Assembly: GCA_031763025.1 (NCBI GenBank)
Contig: JASSKH010000001.1
Location: 20,933,142 to 20,997,141, forward strand
Length of the DNA stretch: 64,000 bases
Origin: Macrocystis pyrifera
Taxonomy: Eukaryota; Sar; Phaeophyceae; Laminariales; Laminariaceae
Direction: 5' to 3'
Positions 51,451 to 62,699 of the stretch are shown here, piece after piece (position 1 is the first letter of the stretch; each line of letters opens with the position of its first letter). The translations under genes were made by a program, and so were the position numbers. Below the pieces are notes generated by a model that did not search any database, was not told where the DNA came from, and saw nothing but the letters and a program-made list of their open reading frames with translations.

Positions 51451-52150
51451 TTACTTTCCAGAGGTAAGACCGATTCCTATGCCTTCTTCGGGGGCTTCTT
51501 CGGCCACCACCCTAGGCGCAGCAGTAGTGGCTGGCTCCGGCTCGACGGGGGAGATAACAACGTTCCAGCTCACCACCGTAACGACGACCATGCCGAGGGT
51601 CAAGAGGTAGAAAATGAGGTGGTAGTCGAGCGGGAAGGGGCGGCGGCGGTGGATGGACCAGGCGAAGATGGTGGAGGCAGCGGTCGGACCGGCTGCTTTC
51701 GCCAGCGAGCCCAGAGTCATCGAGAGGCCATTGACGGTGCCGCGTCGGGAGGGGTCTACAGCGTTGTTGGTCGCCAGAGCAACGTTAATGAATACCTGTT
51801 GCGGGTAGAGGGGGGAAGGGAATAGCAGAGGAGGGGGGCGGAGAGGCCGCATCAAAGGTGCCTTGTTCTTAGGTGCGGGAGGTGCAACGCCGAAATCGAG
51901 CTGGCGCAGCTCTAGCGAAGATAGAAGATGCCTGGTACAGTTTATCCACACGCTGACTCGCGTTTGAGAGCGAAATATATCAACATAGAGAGATAAACAT
52001 ATGTAAGTCAGACAGGAACACAGACAGATAGACACGCAGGCATGCAGGCAGAGATATAGGCAGACAGGCAGGCAGACAGGCAGGCAACCAGACATGCAAA
52101 CAGGCAGGCAGACAGGTAGGCAGGTATACCGCCAGACCGCCAGTTTGCCA

Positions 52151-52231
<81 letters not shown>

Positions 52232-52482
52232 ACGGGCAGGCAGGCAGGCAGGCAGGCAGGCAGACGGGCAGGCAGGCAGGCAGGCAGGCAGACATACATA
52301 CATACATACAGATAGACAGACAGACAGACAGACAGACATACATACATACATACAAACAGACAGACAGACAGGCAGACAGGCAGGCAGACCGATACAGTCA
52401 GACAGACGGACAGACGGAAGACATACAGACAGACAGACAGACAGACAGGCAGACAGACAGACAGACATACACACATACATAC

Positions 52483-52518
<36 letters not shown>

Positions 52519-52623
52519 GGACAGACGGACAGACAGACAGACCGACAGACAGACAGACAGACAGAGAGACATGCAGGCAGATAGACAGACAAAGAGACAA
52601 ACACGCGGACATGCAGGCAGAAA

Positions 52624-52660
<37 letters not shown>

Positions 52661-55600
52661 CGAGACAGCGACAAAGAAGAGGGTGACAAAACGAGAGGAA
52701 AGGAGGGGGAGAGCGAGAGCGAGAGAGGCAGATAGGAAGAGAAAGAGACAGATACATACCCAGCGGATCGCACGCAACCCGGTGAAACACCACGCGCCTT
52801 AATCGCAGCGTCCACGGGGACTCAAAATCGATGGTGGTAATGCCTTAATCGAGCGCACCGGGGTGGACAACATAGACCCCCCCCCTTTCCACATCCAGCC
52901 AGCCGGCTTCCGGGGATCCCCCCCCCATCAAGACGCACATATGAACATATGCCCGGGGGCCAACCCTCCGGGATCGTCCCAACCATAAGAAAATGACCCT
53001 GAGGATAGAGGCCTCCTGCTTGTAAGAACGCGACGCATGCCCTCACCGACTACAATCCAACCAAGCTTCCAAGAGCCACGAGAACAAAACTCGCAACCAT
53101 CTGTACGACCGCGCCATTGTATAACGATGTCGCGCAGTAGCACTAAGATGCTCGGCACTGCATAGCGCCATCATACAGCGGCATCAAACTGGTCGATGCG
53201 TTTCTAAACACCAAGATGGTTGACATCAACATCGTCTAGCATTAGGAACATGCGTGGGATAGATATATGCAGAATGGTGACAAGCGTGGCACCCACCGCG
53301 TTCGAAGCCACGTTGGTGAAGAACAGCAGCACCAGCGAGGCAGCCAGAAGAGTCCGCTCGGAATCGTGCAGCCGGGAGAGGAAGGGGTAGGTGAGAAAAA
53401 CGGGGATTCCGATGCAGCAGGCCCAGCGCTGTGACGTTTTAGCGCCTATCCTTTTGACAATCCTTGGATAAATCAATAGCTGGAAGATGAGCATGCCTCC
53501 GCCACACGCAGAAAGAGCCTACAGCAGTATAGAGCGGGCGGGCGCAACATCAAAAGGGGGACAATATCGGTGCAAACGCAACCCAGGGGCTAGAGACAAA
53601 TGTACAGGATGTGTGAAGCCGTTCGCGGAATATTCAAAGGAGTTCAAGAGGCGAGGGTCGGGGCGTGTTTGAGTTTTTTTGGTTCCGAAAGAACCCCAAG
53701 AAAATCGTCCATTTCAGGCCAAGACGGGAGCCGGCGAACCGCCACCCAATCGCCGTCTAGCACAAAGGAGAGATGGGAGGTCGACACAAAGTCCAGAGGC
53801 TCATGCCGCCTATAACACCTACTGCTGCGGCGGGAGGCGAGCACAACCTGAAGTACATGCACGTTCCACTGTTCCTTTGGATGGACGCCGCGGCCAACCA
53901 TCGAACACTATATGGTGCCTTCCCGGTCATAATGGGAGGGGCGTGGGAGCAGCAAACCTTGCCTCCCTTGGCCCACAAGCAGCGCTACAGTATATTTTTA
54001 CCACAATCGTGCCAGCGAAATATACCACGGCTGCGCGCTGGGTGCTGGACGTGGGGAAAGCGCTGACGACTGCTACGAACACTGTGACCTGGAACGAAAC
54101 GGCCTCGCAGAAATACATGTTTCGGCTAGACACGGACCGACTAGTAATACGAACCTATGGAAGAACACACGCATGTGCGAAAAGCAGAGCGACAGGACAA
54201 TATGCGAGGGCGCGTGCTTCCTTGAGGCCTATCATTAGGTGCCCCACACCTGTCCTACTTCTCGGGTCGTCCAATCCAAGCCCCCGCTGCCGGCGCTGCT
54301 GATCGCCCACAGAGGGTACGCTTCGTCAAATCCAATGTCAAGAAACTGGAACGATAAATAAATCGGCGAAAAAGTGAGAAAGCGCACGAAGGAAACGATA
54401 AAAATGTCAAGTAATCGTGTTGAGGCGTTCATTATTACCTGTCCGATCTGTTTGGTCGTCCAATCCAAACCCCCGTTGGCCAAAGTGCTGAGCGCCCATA
54501 GTGGGTACACCTCCTGGGATCCAATGGATATGAACTGCGATTGAAAGGCGACGCGCGATAAAGGGGGTCCGAGCGAAAATTGCGATTTCGTGATTTTTAG
54601 CCCTTACGCACATTGTCTAGTTGCAGAAAAATCACTTGACCGGACGGAAAGTGGGGGGCACCCAACAAAAGTCGTTAAATTTCCTCGTCATAAATTCTTG
54701 GGGAGGCACACGTACGAATAGCAATCACAAGGTACAGCGATACGACCACATCTAATGCACAAAGCATCAACCGCATAAAGCGGACAAGAAAACCTCTGTC
54801 CTCACCGAAAACAAGACGTACACGAACAGGATGGTGCGGACCCGCTTCTCTTCGAGAAGTTTAACCGGCAGAAGACACTCCCGCAGGCAGGGATTCTTCC
54901 TCCTCCTCCCCCCTCCCCGACTCTCGCCACCGACAGCGTCAAACCCCCCGCCCTGTCTAACACCGGCCCCTTCCAACCGCGAGCTTCCATAGGCCCGGCC
55001 ATGGACACTGCTGTGCAACTCCCCTGCCTCCAGATCTTGCGCCCCGCTAGACGATCTCGAGCGTCGCCGAGCAAGAGGTAATTGCTCCTCGGCTCGTGCC
55101 TGGGCGAAGCTACCGTTACATCCACCGTTGTTGACGATCTCATATCCACCCTTATCCGTGCTACCCGGCGTCGCCCCCCCCCTGCCGCCGCCGGAGTGCA
55201 AGCGCACCCGGTCCACATTCGCGAGCTCGGGATCGTACGCATTGTCGAGATTGGGCATTTCGACTCTTCCCCCCTCGTCCGCTGCCGCCTCCTGACTGTG
55301 CAGCTCGGCCTCAGACGTCGGGAGGGGCTCGAAGCCCCGCCTGCATCCAGACAAGTTGAAAATTGCTGAGGCCGTGTACATGAGGCAAATATACCGTACC
55401 AGTACAAATTGTACCTCACAGCATTTTCCGACATGGGATAGGCTACTTTGCCGACACACCTCACTAATTTCTTCCTCCGCGGTGAAATTAGATTAAGCAC
55501 GGCAGACCATTTCGAATTTCACTTGTCGTTATGGAAGGTTGGCGGTCCACACCAACTCGTCCTGGACAATTATTTCGGTACACCAACTGTCTGGTTCTGG

Positions 55601-58600
55601 GACGTTTGGTCCGTCATGGGCACAAACAATGCTTGACACTTTGCCAGGTATCACTTGTGTTGTAGAAAGGTTTGCAACTGCGACGCTTTTTTCGGGGGAG
55701 GGATAGGGAAGAAATAGTTCGACCAGACAAGGAAACGTGGTGTTACCCCGGCGCACGGTGGGTGTTTTTTCCCCTCACGGTATTCGATGAGGCGATAACT
55801 TACTAAACCAGGGCTCTGCCCTAACCGGCATATTAACGTCCCCGAAGTGGGGGTGGATAGCATTCTTTAGCCTTTGAAATAGCAGGGTGAATCATATTAG
55901 CCCCATCATGTTCGTAGCCCCTAGTGCGTATAATACCTGCCGCCACGCTTAGGGGCATCCAAGGTCTCTTTCAGGAAGAAATATACCAGAGGCAGGCCTA
56001 TCAGGGCCAGGGTTGCCCCGAGGATGTTCGGCAGCAAGTACGGGAACCTGGTATAGTTCAGATGTCGGCACACAGCACAGAGGGGGGAACCCGAGCGACA
56101 AAAATACGAGAAATGATTTACAGCCCCTTTAGAACTTCACTCACGCTTCATGGGACAAACTACTAAACTTCTGAACATTAACATATGGACAACGTCTGCA
56201 GTGTTGATCGTACGCTTTCTCGGTTGACAAAGCCCAATATTTTTCGGCGTGAAACGAAATCTCGTGTTGTACCACTGCATAACTGTGGCGAGTATAGGCC
56301 GACCGGTGGCGAGAGTGAGCTGACGAAACGCAAAAGCCGTTGCTGCTGGAAATTTCGCCCTAGGTTGTTTCAGACTCAGCCAGTGCCTTTCACGGAGACA
56401 TTTCGTCCGCTGGGCCCTTTCTCTAGGGCGAAAGAAGGCGGTGGCTCACTCCCTCTCGAGGCTGATCTGCGTCGGTGCAAACTGGTGCAGTGGTAACAAT
56501 CGAGGTCAACCTCGAAGCGCGCCAGGGGGGGGCGGAGACCCAAAGATGGAGTCAACGGCGCAAGTTGTGCATTACGGCACAACCAAACATGGCACAATCA
56601 ATCCGACGGAGAAGCACCGGCAACAACTCTTGCTGCTGTAGGCCGCGCATGGCGATGGTTAGAAGCAGCGCCTATCGATGAGACACTATCGTTCGTGCGA
56701 CGATTACCTTCCGAACAGCCCCGACTCTGAAAACACGCCGGGGTAGTGATTGGCCGGTTTCGCCAGCAGGCCACCAAGGCCGGAACCAAGGACGAGTCCA
56801 ATCGACCAGCACCCTTGACGGTGAGAAAGGCACACGGACCGAGCGAAGGGTTTGCGAAGTACATTAAAGTGTTTGCAGACAAAACGTGTGGGATGCAACA
56901 GAAAAATACGTGTGGAGTGTACCAGGCAACACTTGGTATGAGGTCAAGGACAGTAACCGGCGGGGGTAAAATACCAACTGCGCAGTAAAAAAGAAGGCAT
57001 TCCAATGCAGAGGGGTCTGGAGCAGGAGGCGGAAAGGGTGAGAACAGCCTAGCCTTACTTTGGTCAGAATAAACGTTCTTTGATGTCGCTTCTTATCGAT
57101 CATCAAAGCACCTCGAGCAGTCTATCAGTATGGAATTTCGGGAGACCTTTGCAACGTACCTGGTTAGGTCTTCAGGAACAATCTTACCTGGCTGCAGTTC
57201 TTCAAGGTACTGCTCTAGCTCTATTCATGATGTGACGTCTCGCCACTATAGTAGTTACAAGGATAGCGGTGAAAATTTGCCCTATCGGCCTGTTTTTCTC
57301 GCCCTCAAATGTGAACCAGACCGCTTAGTATGGTAGGCAGTTCACTGACTGTAGCTCCGCAATCATCGCATCACCTGTGACAAAGCTCATGCCAACCACC
57401 TCGTGCTCTCTTCCGCACACCTCGGAGATCATGGTCTTGGCGATGGCTATCAGGCCGTTCATTGCACCGAGAAGAAACCTACGTCGACGCAGCGATGCAG
57501 GAATCCGTCAGCAACGAGCGATGGATGAAGCACTACTGGATGATTTTGTACGTGTCTAGCAGCACGTAGATTTTGCATGTCAGCTGTTTCAAAACATGTA
57601 CTGCTGTAGTTAGATCACTAGGCTGACGACGGCGAGAGGACGGCCGGTTTTGTGTTTCTTTACGTAATAATGCACAAGGTATAGCGTAGAATGGTTGATG
57701 GGATCGTATACCCAAGGTTCTTTCAGGTTGCACCGCGACCTGTGCTATAGGACGATGGTAGACCAGCGAATGGGAGATATATTGATGCTCGGCCGAGCTG
57801 GAACAAAGGTTGAACACAATCCATAGACACGACGAGGTAAACTGTCCTGAACCATAGATACCGCTCCCCTCACCGGCAAGCAACAGCCCAGACAAATGTG
57901 GTCGACAAACCGAAAGCGACCGAAAGGGATGCTATGGAACAAAGCCCCATGTACATGACCGGCAGTCGACCGTAGCGGTCGGCGAAGCGGCCCCAGAAGT
58001 ACGAGCTCCCGAAGCGCCCGATCATGAAAGCCGACGACAAATAGCCTGCGTAAAAACCTGTATGGGCAGTATCACGTTGGTGCACATACAGCGGTATAAA
58101 TGGTATTAGCAGTGACAGAGGGGTTCAGCGAGTACTGATAGTCAGAGCAATGGGCAGTGCGATTAAAAGGCACCCAAGATAATGCTAAGCGGCAGCCCTC
58201 GCAAAACCCTATGCACAGACCTACGCAAGCACATAGGCAACACAACCACACAGCGATACATTACCAGGGGGGAGCAAGTGAGGTTAAAGCCGTATGGGCT
58301 ATCGAGGATGGTTCACGCAATGAAGTGACAGCGCGATGCATATGACATCGCACCGATATGCTCAGGTCGAGACAGCAAGGGATGCATGCGCGCTTCAAGC
58401 CCAGACACTCAGCAGTCAGGAGGCAGCGTGGTGTCGACTGGCATCGTGCAATCAATCGTATCTTCAGGAACCAAACAAATGCCTCCCGGAACGGTTTCGG
58501 TATCGGAGAATCGCATTTTATAATGGTAAAACGCGCGTAAACTTGCCGGCCTCATCCTTGTCGTCGGTGACCCCCAGATATTGCACCATGTAGCCCACGT

Positions 58601-58688
58601 AGGGAAACAGGCTGCTGAGGGCGTACGAATGCGCCACAAGGCCGATCGAAATCGCCACCATAGGCGGCCACGGAAAAGGCGTCTCCAT
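51451..58688 (-). CDS. ZIFL/DHA1-like major facilitator transporter, nine exon positions
   Basis: Exons on the minus strand: 58688-58547, 58057-57874, 57478-57375, 56813-56708, 56047-55937, 55340-54806, then 7A 54534-54439 or 7B 54345-54250, 53518-53297 and 51795-51451. Phases (1, 2, 1, 2, 2, 0, 0, 0) agree at every junction, giving 614 residues with one exon 7. The protein starts M-E-T-P-F-P-W-P-P-M-V-A; an in-frame TAG lies just upstream. MFS motif A is W-G-R-F-A-D-R-Y-G-R (exon 2), and a motif C-like G-L-V-L-G-S-G-L-G-G lies in exon 4. Exon 6 holds a 150-residue hydrophilic central loop, as in plant ZIFL proteins. Exon 8 has L-I-F-Q-L-L-I-Y-P. ZIFL proteins move metal ions, potassium or small organic ions by proton coupling across vacuolar or plasma membranes (family knowledge); the substrate here is unknown. 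Intron 1 is GC-AG. Confidence 0.88.
52015..52670 (+). repeat. CAGG/CAGA tetranucleotide array in transporter intron 8
   Basis: GGCA/CAGG units dominate 52153-52290 and 52628-52660. CAGA units dominate 52315-52345, 52430-52450 and 52490-52570, with CATA patches between. The minus strand is open for over 400 codons (C-L-P-A repeats) because a tetranucleotide repeat without stops is open in all frames. This is not a protein. Confidence 0.9.
54250..54345 (-). CDS. transporter exon 7B (alternative twin)
   Basis: 96 bases, phase 0 on both sides, with acceptor TTATCGTTCCAG and donor GTGTGG. It encodes F-L-D-I-G-F-D-E-A-Y-P-L-W-A-I and G-G-L-D-W-T-T-R-E-V-G-Q. The D-I-x-F-D-E-x-x-P-L-W pattern is the usual one for this position in ZIFL proteins (end of helix 7 and the following loop). 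It is identical to 7A at 19 of 32 positions. Confidence 0.8.
54439..54534 (-). CDS. transporter exon 7A (alternative twin)
   Basis: 96 bases, phase 0 on both sides, with acceptor CAATCGCAG and donor GTAATA. It encodes F-I-S-I-G-S-Q-E-V-Y-P-L-W-A-L and G-G-L-D-W-T-T-K-Q-I-G-Q. The two acidic residues of the usual D-I-x-F-D-E pattern are Ser and Gln here, which may change substrate handling (inference). Only 93 bases separate it from 7B, against 271-1,501 for the other introns of this gene. Confidence 0.8.
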
Positions 58689-60078: not shown

Positions 60079-60219
60079 GAAGAACACACACACACACACA
60101 CAAACACGCAAGGAGGAGCTCGAGCCGAAAAGGATCCAGTACTCGTAGGCTTGGCAGGACAAGCAGTATCGTGTCCTGATACTGTCGTCGTGGCTTGCAA
60201 CCTGTTAGCTATTTTTTTT

Positions 60220-60350
60220 TATTATAAATTTTGAAATACGTCAGCTGTGAGTTCGACTGATTAAATAGTTGATACTCAACTTTGCAAGCTGCGTAATACG
60301 CCTCGTCTATATTCCATTTTTACCGAATTTTACAAGTATTGTTGACCCGG
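60220..60350 (+). repeat. MITE family M1, arm facing the complete copy
   Basis: It starts AAATTTTGAAATACGTCAGC and forms a near-perfect 125-base inverted repeat with 60415-60545, with a spacer of about 65 bases. The pair could fold into a long hairpin. Confidence 0.8.
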
Positions 60351-60401
60351 GCAGCATCCAGGGGAGCCGCTGGCCTATATCTTTGACAAGGAATCACATA
60401 C

Positions 60402-60579
60402 AGAATACGCGCGTTCGGTTTATCACAATAATTGTAAAATTAGGTAAAAATGGAATATAGACGAGGCGTATTACGCAGCTTGCAAAGTTGAGTATCAACT
60501 ATTTAATCAGTCGAACTCACAGCTGACGTATTTCAAAATTTATAAAAGTATTGTGATAAACCGAGCGCAGGTATTCTAT
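60402..60579 (-). mobile_element. MITE family M1, complete copy
   Basis: Terminal inverted repeats are GAATACGCGCGTTCGGTTTA (then TCACAATA) on the left and TATTGTGATAAACC then GAGCGCAGGTATTC on the right. Total length is about 178 bases with no coding capacity. The same terminus is present at 62225-62255 and 46570-46590. Flanking bases suggest a TA-type duplication (ATACA/TATA) but this is not clear. The transposase source is unknown. Confidence 0.8.
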
Positions 60580-62108
60580 ATAGCACATGCATGTCTTGCG
60601 CGAGACACCGCACTACCGCACTGCTGTGTTTGCGGGAGTCACTGCTGCTGTGCGTATGTATGCATGTTTGTTGTATCTTTTGATTCGCCATCTCTCTCAC
60701 CGCAACTGGTTGTAGCATGCATATTTCAACTCGTACATAATCTACAGCAGTAACTTTGCATGTATGTTGATGTTGGCGAGTACGAGACTGCTGTCTGTCA
60801 TATCAAATCATACGTCAGAAAAGCGGTGCACTGGTGCCAGTCGATTAGGCTTGCCGATCATACCTTCCTTTACCGAATGCACACCAACGCAGCGTTTTAT
60901 GGCCGTGTGACACCATCTCCAGTCCAGTGGCCGGCTTCAATCTAAAAATGGAGCCCTTGTCCATGCTATCAGGCAAGCGACCTTCCAAGGTACCCAGGTT
61001 CCCAGGTTCTCAGAAGCTGGTTGCGACGATGAGACGGTTTGCGTGTTGACGTACCGGTACCTGTACTACGAGTACAGCGCCTGTAGTCTGTCGTAGCACG
61101 TGGGAGTGTACGTACACAGGCCGGTCTCACCTGCAATGACGTACTGCTGTAACCTCGCCCAGATAAGGTCAGACCCAGACTATGTGCGAGTCCCGGGGTA
61201 GCACACTCCCGTGTCTGCTCTTTTCGTTGATGGGATTGTGGCTCGTTCAAAGGCACGATAGCCAAGTCATCCGGTGCAAGCCGCTCGTGGCCGACGAGCT
61301 AGTTCATACCTGGAAGGCGTTCTGGTTCGCCGCGTACGTACGGGTAGCCATTGCGCCGCATCGCTGCTGACTTCTTTGTTCTGCTTTCCTTTCGGTTTCT
61401 TCCTCATCTACCACCAGTCGACAAGCCGTTGAGGGCCTCTCTCGTGATTCCTCGAAGCGGAGCTTGGCCCATGTTCTGGTACGTAAGAATATGTTGTCCC
61501 GATTCGTCAGTATGAAAAGGTACTTTCTTCGCAGTCGATATGGCTACCTCTGTACCTAGGCAGTGCAGTATTTTATTGACTGCTGTGCTGCTTGCGGTGG
61601 ATCATCTGTGATCTGGCTCCTCCTAAAAAAATCAAGCGCAATACGATTTACCTGGTACATGTTACTACTGTAGTAAAATATAGGGACCACCGCTGTACTG
61701 TCACAAAGCGGTGGGGATCAATTCTGGGAGAGTAGTCACAACATCTGCATGCGTAGCACTCATGATAGACGCTACCTCTCCGGGGTCCTTTCGCCCTGCG
61801 TCTGTTTTCACGCTGAGGTTTATATTCTTTTCCAGAGCTCCAGCCCACTCTATGCTGGGCGTACATGCCACGTTCACACTCTGCCCAAGTTCGAAGTTCG
61901 TGCACAGACTGACCATTACCCCGCAGCCTGCGGTCCTTGCTGGAGGGTCATTGTAAACGCTGTCTTGACCAGCGCCATTATTCTGGAGTAGTATAGCGCC
62001 GAGGGCAACTGTTGATTGATCTCTAAAAGTATAGACGCAGCTGGCACGGGAACGCGTGGTTGACTCCAGACAGTAACACGGAAGTCCTCTTATATACATA
62101 TATATATA
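60580..62108. other. no supportable gene
   Basis: Open frames are short and carry no motifs. TACTGCTGTA-type palindromes occur at 60741 (inverse) and 61142. Confidence 0.35.
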
Positions 62109-62109
62109 T

Positions 62110-62256
62110 TTTTATAAATTTTGAAATACGTCAGCTGTGAGTTCGACTGATTAAATAGTTGATACTCAACTTTGCAAGCTGCGTAATACGCCTCGTCTAT
62201 ATTCCATTTTTACCTAATTTTACAATTATTGTGATAAACCGAGCGCGCGTATTCTA
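62110..62256 (+). mobile_element. MITE family M1, near-complete copy
   Basis: It carries the arm from AAATTTTGAAATACGTCAGC through to TTGTGATAAACCGAGCGCGCG and TATTCTAT, that is the right terminal repeat. The left terminus is replaced by a (TA)n stretch. Confidence 0.78.
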
Positions 62257-62699
62257 TATTATATCCGAGCTGTCGAATGACAGCTCATGACAACGTATGC
62301 AGGTTATTATCCAACAGGTTGCGGGAATGAACCTCACGTTTATCCCGCAGAATATCCGTCTAAATATCCCTCTCCTTTAATCCCATATATCAATATATGG
62401 AACTCCCTAATGTTAGATGGAACATCTCCGTCGTGTTTCTGAGCACAATCAGTATCACCCTGCTGTGATGCGGAGCCCGCTCTAGGGTAGTGGTAAGGGT
62501 AGTGGCAAGGGACGCAGGTTGTTCTGGCAGCTGGAAAGCAGTGCTTCGCTTCTTCTGATTTAGATCTTCTTATTGATGGCAAGAGCTGAGGAGGTGCTCT
62601 GGTAGAGAAGTGAGAGGTAGGGGGGCGGGACTCGACGCCCAGATATACTCGTCCCACCCCACGCCACAAGCTCTCCTAAATTCCTCTTATCTGATGTAC

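Follow-up and report, generated by a model that had tools for sequence, protein, structure and literature searches.

Choice between alternative exons is established in solute transporters of mammals: NKCC2 has the alternative exons 4A, B and F, and in SLC39A14 (ZIP14) the choice between exons 4A and 4B affects the substrate, both belonging to transporter families unrelated to the one described here. In fish mitf, alternative exons have decayed differentially. Splicing that substitutes one tandem duplicated exon for another is rare but recognised and, in the available passages of its description, is enriched in animal ion channels and transporters (PMC9741552). The same passages give tandem exons that became divided among gene duplicates, as in FYN with FGR/SRC/YES1/FRK, in CACNA1F/CACNA1S and in PGM1/PGM5.

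Here we describe a pair of neighbouring exons, 7A and 7B, in a 64,000-nucleotide stretch of Macrocystis pyrifera DNA (hereafter the window). The locus resembles the animal cases, as the available passages present them (PMC9741552), in its in-frame homologous exons, in paralogs that keep different copies and in one gene that keeps both; it differs in that the organism is a brown alga, the gene encodes an MFS transporter, the copies lie on one contig, the splice swap is predicted and the decayed copies are still readable as relics. With SLC39A14, in the passages available, it shares alternative exons in a solute transporter (PMC5748785). Brown algal ROCO receptors likewise have tandem homologous exons and alternative splicing, but they are candidate immune receptors with variable sets of 72-bp LRR repeat exons and, as far as the passages available go, no one-of-two choice; the term 'mutually exclusive' is absent from the main text of that paper (PMC11378527). 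Neither a one-of-two exon choice in brown algae or in an algal ZIFL protein nor a matching transporter exon duplication occurred among the open-literature matches listed. The kind of system is known; the brown-alga lineage and the MFS gene family in which it is found here are new for it.

Gene model and family membership

The window gene lies on the minus strand and encodes an MFS/ZIFL-like membrane transporter (Table 1). When the exons were joined and translated, the product had 614 amino acids by the 7A route and equally by the 7B route, and the same stop was reached with A only, B only, A plus B or neither (614, 614, 646 and 582 aa). The GC donor of intron 1 has a counterpart in a paralog, L039, around position 996 (gene strand), and GC also follows exon 7 in L051, L067 and L069. 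The repeated element upstream of the gene looks like a short mobile element.

Table 1. Features of the transporter gene and its surroundings (window coordinates).
Feature	Position	Strand	Remarks
Gene	51451..58688	-	read from 58688 to 51451
Exon 1	58547..58688	-	start codon; GC donor; exon and GC donor shared with paralog L039
Intron 1 donor	58541..58546	-	GC (gcaagt)
Exon 2	57874..58057	-	holds loop 2-3 motif WGRFADRYGR
Exon 3	57375..57478	-	
Exon 4	56708..56813	-	most of the TM5 antiporter-type motif
Exon 5	55937..56047	-	
Exon 6	54806..55340	-	variable loop 6-7 and start of TM7; phase 0 end
Exon 7A	54439..54534	-	Gln form of TM7 segment; 96 nt; intact AG/GT
Intron 7A-7B	54346..54438	-	93 nt
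Exon 7B	54250..54345	-	Asp form of TM7 segment; 96 nt; intact AG/GT
Exon 8	53297..53518	-	phase 0 start
Exon 9	51451..51795	-	C-terminal part, stop TAA
Repeat array in intron 8	52009..52668		660-bp CAGA-type tetranucleotide array, about 165 copies
Upstream element	60219..60342, 60398..60551, 62106..62259		direct and inverted copies of a roughly 120-150 bp element, 98% alike

Against Pfam MFS_1 (PF07690) the product scored 111.3 bits, the curated cut-off being 33.4, with residues 14-537 aligned to positions 2-347 of the 347 in the profile. The original prediction had classed it as a ZIFL-type transporter, and this held as far as homology goes: the four published rice ZIFL motif blocks (PMC3041735, available passages), among them the block of exon 7, aligned with window stretches picked by eye at BLOSUM62 scores of 88.5, 102, 100 and 91.5; none of these alignments has more than one short internal gap. 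Judged by eye, the loop 2-3 signature W-G-x(3)-D-[RK]-x-G-R-[RK] is fitted by WGRFADRYGRL except at the last position, and the TM5 signature S-x(8)-G-x(3)-G-P-x(2)-G-G by SFVTGCWSIGLVLGSGLGG except for a change of Pro to Ser. The plant-specific Cys and complete His signatures do not carry over. By eye, the window protein has no N-terminal Cys motif C-[PS]-G-C, reported for 58 of 68 plant ZIFL proteins (PMC3041735); it reads KETLDAP where the His motif [PQ]-E-[TS]-[LI]-H-x-[HKLRD] would follow TM6, and KRIGAKTSQR, differing at the Pro and Ile/Val positions, at the loop 8-9 motif [RK]-x(2)-G-P-[IV]-x(3)-R. Since the protein is homologous to plant ZIFL proteins but lacks the Cys and the complete His signatures, we call it ZIFL-like. 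The passages seen on the plant family describe no alternative exon pair (PMC3041735).

Exons 7A and 7B are homologous

Two adjacent exons of 96 nt, phase 0 on both sides and with good splice sites, had been predicted, and both they and their coordinates proved right; the exons are open and belong to a gene on the minus strand. The acceptors of the 7A/7B pair read cgcag and tccag and the donors gtaata and gtgtgg. The encoded peptides, FISIGSQEVYPLWALSTLANGGLDWTTKQIGQ and FLDIGFDEAYPLWAISSAGSGGLDWTTREVGQ, are identical at 19 of 32 residues (59.4%), and either exon joins its neighbours in frame, since exon 6 ends and exon 8 begins in phase 0. A DNA profile made from B exons and their flanks picks up 7A at E=8.8e-19, and an A-B pair spaced 187-198 nt from start to start recurs in five paralogs (L039-L043); the likeness of the two exons is therefore not due to chance. 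Alignment to NorA, which is weak in sequence (domain E-value 0.34), places exon 7 over distal TM7 and the loop to TM8.

The two exons had further been said to differ at the acidic positions of a D-I-x-F-D-E pattern. The acids do differ, at exon positions 3 and 7, but the pattern belongs to 7B only (DIGFDE); 7A reads SIGSQE, and Glu8 is kept.

One exon of the pair has decayed in every paralog on the contig

A genome search with 7A gave at least 63 places at E<=1, of which 15 (13 genes) are on this contig and 48 elsewhere; only the best candidates were scored, and the family count is a lower bound. About 10 kb was read around each of the 12 paralogs on the same 26.5-Mb contig; elsewhere, 30 of the 48 places were examined, with flanks on each side of about 1.5 kb for ten and about 0.4-0.6 kb for twenty. 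For each exon type, a DNA profile was made from those exon copies that have an open frame, together with their short flanks.

All 13 genes found on the contig have the two exons or their relics, which indicates that the A-B pair is ancestral to these genes. Among the 13, the window gene alone has both exons in working order. B has decayed in eight paralogs (L039, L044-L050) and A in four (L040-L043). The A exon remains beside a broken B in L039 and L045-L050, and the dead B of L039 has lost its acceptor, its donor and its frame; L040, L041 and L042 have kept the B exon, and their A lacks its donor site and key residues. The DNA profiles found the A relics of L040-L043 at E 4e-15 to 5e-9 and the B relics at 1e-27 (L039), 1e-12 to 5e-12 (L045-L050) and 8e-6 (L044). 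Every relic scored far worse, or nothing, with the profile of the opposite type, and in 12 of 12 paralogs what is left of the missing exon sits on that side of the kept exon where it would be expected. On other contigs, the same profiles found a single exon-7 site in each of the 30 loci examined and a second one in none; the weak second tblastn matches in several of these loci (16-21 bits) were accordingly taken as chance.

A copy decayed in relatives had been named beforehand as evidence against the pair. Taken literally, such a copy exists in all 12 paralogs, but it is A in some and B in others, and because the decaying copy differs between paralogs, a pair of alternatives fits better than one dead copy.

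Two paralogs may have no working exon 7 at all. L044 has, beside its broken B, an open A from which both splice sites are gone; L043 has a broken A, and a one-base insertion shifts the frame of its B, which would read Glu7-Asp8.

The nearest paralog of the window gene is L039 (tree support 1.00 for DNA and 0.95 for protein). As L039 is nearest to the window gene, which keeps B, its loss of B is separate from that in L044-L050. There were at least three separate exon losses, two of B and one of A, the gene trees being unrooted, with candidate root matches too weak to use. L040 stands apart from L041-L043 in both unrooted trees at weak nodes (0.81 and 0.73); if it is truly apart, a second loss of A is possible, with up to five events in total. 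On the age of the exon duplication, for which 32 codons give too short a comparison, the nucleotide exon tree groups B with other groups of the family (support 86-90), whereas Thr26 is found in 10 of 10 A and B peptides and in none of 28 relatives.

Damage elsewhere is frequent. L044 is damaged throughout, with stops and lost splice sites, and frameshifts occur in L040, L041, L043 and L049, that of L049 in exon 6; exon 9 of L039 was not found within about 7.9 kb downstream. Since many paralogs are damaged elsewhere, their exon decay may in part be general gene decay. L042, with B only, and L045-L048 and L050, with A only, look intact in the stretch read. The first exon of L042 was not found in the 1.2 kb upstream of its exon 2, nor were exons 1-2 of L045 within about 5.4 kb upstream; L046 showed only a part of its exon 2, at the edge of the stretch, and exons 1-2 of L047-L050 were sought only inside the 10 kb. 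L046-L050 are five near-identical A-only copies, roughly 36-67 kb apart at 23.54-23.76 Mb of the same contig, and are a recent expansion.

Both exons are under constraint in the window gene

Changes were counted in gap-free columns of a three-way alignment of the window gene, L039 and L040. Over 2047 intron columns, 246 changes belong to the window gene only and 276 to L039 only, so that the two lineages mutate at similar rates. Polarised changes on the window lineage amount to 1 of 96 columns in 7A and 2 of 87 in 7B, compared with 246 of 2047 in the introns (Fisher p=1.3e-4 and 3.1e-3, respectively). On the L039 branch, A took 7 changes and the dead B, with 18 of 87, evolved no slower than the introns (276 of 2047). 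Columns in which all three sequences differ could not be polarised (4 in 7A, 2 in 7B and 166 in introns); when all such differences were charged to the window gene, the counts became 5 of 96 and 4 of 87 versus 412 of 2047 (p=9.6e-5 for 7A and 8.1e-5 for 7B). With other outgroups, changes in the window gene and L039 stood at 2:20 and 1:20 for exon B (p 1.2e-4 and 2.1e-5) and at 0:8, 0:9 and 0:9 for exon A (p 0.008-0.004). Over all tests, which concern short exons and count few changes, the window lineage shows 0-1 polarised substitutions in 7A and 1-2 in 7B.

Both window exons sit on near-zero branches in the two exon trees. For the window A, the dN/dS ratio against other open A copies was 0.06-0.36 (four comparisons), and for the window B against other open B copies it was 0.24-0.33 (three comparisons); over the rest of the gene, comparison of the window gene with its paralogs gave 0.20-0.50. 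The dN was 0.46-0.53 for A relics versus 0.07-0.10 for open A copies. The exon trees and the exon dN/dS left out the B of L043, with its one-base insertion, and L047-L050, which are near copies of L046. As the rates of 7A and 7B on the window lineage are below those of the introns, both exons are under purifying selection in the window gene.

Residues that distinguish the two forms

Of the 30 loci on other contigs, 28 served as the kelp relatives in the residue comparison, without L018 and L019 (these match as L017); L048-L050, identical in peptide to L046, were listed under it, and the B of L043 was omitted. Position 7 is acidic in all 28 relatives (Asp in 16, Glu in 12). It is Gln in 6 of 6 distinct open A peptides, which represent nine genes, and in 3 of 4 A relics, and Asp in 4 of 4 open B peptides. 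Both forms have Glu at position 8, as do 25 of 28 relatives. Asp3 is peculiar to the window 7B (1 of 4 B copies, 0 of 28 relatives). Other positions are also fixed by form, the full sets being Gln7, Leu18, Ala19 and Lys28 in A (6 of 6) and Ser17, Gly19 and Val30 in B (4 of 4).

The rice ZIFL consensus, in the passages available, has Ser at exon position 7 and Glu at position 8 (PMC3041735), and the acid at position 7 is therefore not essential to all relatives. In NorA, Glu222 of TM7 binds the proton (PMC11130294, available passages); in the weak alignment mentioned above it falls on position 10 of the exon, two to three residues away from the acids at 7 and 8.

The short intron between 7A and 7B

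The intron separating the two exons is, as predicted, 93 nt long, whereas lengths of 247-1561 nt were measured for 38 other introns, taken from six of the genes. It contains AG nowhere but at the acceptor, and 75% of the 60 nt upstream of the acceptor are pyrimidines. Five loose branch-point matches were found in it, including TTGAC at 32 nt and CTCAC at 64 nt from the 5' splice site; no branch-point consensus emerged from the introns compared. Its AG-free length, which is bounded above by the length of the intron itself, ties for 9th-11th of 60 and is reached by about 7% of shuffles.

The homologous exons 4a and 4b of OGDH also flank a short intron, and there, according to the passages available, it is the distance of the branch point, within an intron of restricted size, that enforces exclusion (PMC7969005). 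Those branch points were mapped by experiment, whereas the kelp intron offers an ambiguous sequence signal. A branch point at TTGAC, 32 nt from the 5' splice site, would be near enough to hinder splicing, as for OGDH. The sequence does not support a distant branch point that would prove steric exclusion, the matches being ambiguous and the AG-free length unexceptional. That steric hindrance blocks the joining of 7A to 7B is the least certain part of our explanation, a possibility that we hold to be more doubtful than probable.

A probable one-of-two exon pair and its alternatives

The data are, in our judgement, quite probably explained by an old tandem exon duplication in TM7, with 7A and 7B as mutually exclusive exons, and by repeated splitting of this pair among gene duplicates. 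The 13 genes found on the contig inherited the A-B pair from their common ancestor; the paralogs later lost A or B, leaving the window gene alone with both working, and it is best explained as the last complete holder of the pair among the 13. In the ZIFL-like MFS transporter each exon would encode distal TM7 together with the loop that leads to TM8, and one mRNA would carry 7A or 7B, never both. We infer transcripts with one exon only because A plus B adds 32 residues and a second TM7 segment, and skipping removes TM7; no relative examined encodes double inclusion or exon-7 skipping. The alternative exon pair of the original prediction is thus well supported, since both exons are constrained and the seemingly intact paralogs, in the part read, keep exactly one working copy.

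One exon might instead have gone out of use in the window gene and be intact merely because too little time has passed. Loss is indeed the usual fate, with one copy decayed in 12 of 12 paralogs, but the introns have changed by about 12% per lineage since the L039 split, against 1 change in 7A and 2 in 7B, and meanwhile the unused B of L039 took 18-20 changes and lost its acceptor, donor and frame. Disuse may survive as an explanation where use ended very recently, and we consider it unlikely. Joint inclusion would give a transporter with a repeated TM7 segment, and the frame permits it: 7A plus 7B is a multiple of three, and the 646-aa product is free of internal stops. An extra helix would, however, invert the C-terminal half of the MFS fold, as follows from its established topology; moreover, all 28 translated relatives have one 32-residue exon 7, and each paralog has at most one that works, which makes joint inclusion very improbable.

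The location of A-type and B-type genes in a shared region of the contig could also point to a recent chimera, produced by unequal crossing-over between A-only and B-only neighbours. We rejected this origin as barely credible, since relics in 12 of 12 paralogs, each on its expected side, and the recurrent spacing in L039-L043 make the pair ancestral. A further view accepts that the pair is used but takes the two forms as functionally equivalent, its value being in regulation or dosage and not in transport chemistry. The Ser at position 7 of the rice consensus (PMC3041735, available passages), the Glu8 kept in both forms and the offset of two to three residues from the coupling residue of NorA all agree with equivalence; the form-specific residues fixed across paralogs suggest distinct constraint instead, and we regard equivalence as rather improbable.

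Implications for kelp transporters

If 7A and 7B are alternatives, exon choice would swap the Asp of TM7 in the B form, where an acid is general among kelp relatives, for the Gln of the A form, and this swap would alter proton or substrate coupling. Judged from the residues, the switch of pore chemistry proposed in the original prediction is plausible, and a change in coupling from Asp7 to Gln7 is a reasonable hypothesis. More speculatively, and with considerable doubt, kelp splicing could switch one transporter between two coupling modes, B being a proton- or cation-coupled antiporter and A an uncoupled or otherwise coupled carrier with other substrates; the paralogs on the same contig would then be hard-wired for each mode, and the window gene would be the last switchable copy.

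The splitting of an exon pair among duplicates is on record in this one contig, with the broken copies kept and the unsplit gene alongside, and the array preserves both intermediate and end states of the partition. The A-only and B-only paralogs are natural single-form controls for the role of each form. If the splicing is confirmed, an MFS transporter would be subject to a one-of-two exon choice, and this in a member of the brown algae, a lineage in which complex multicellularity evolved independently.
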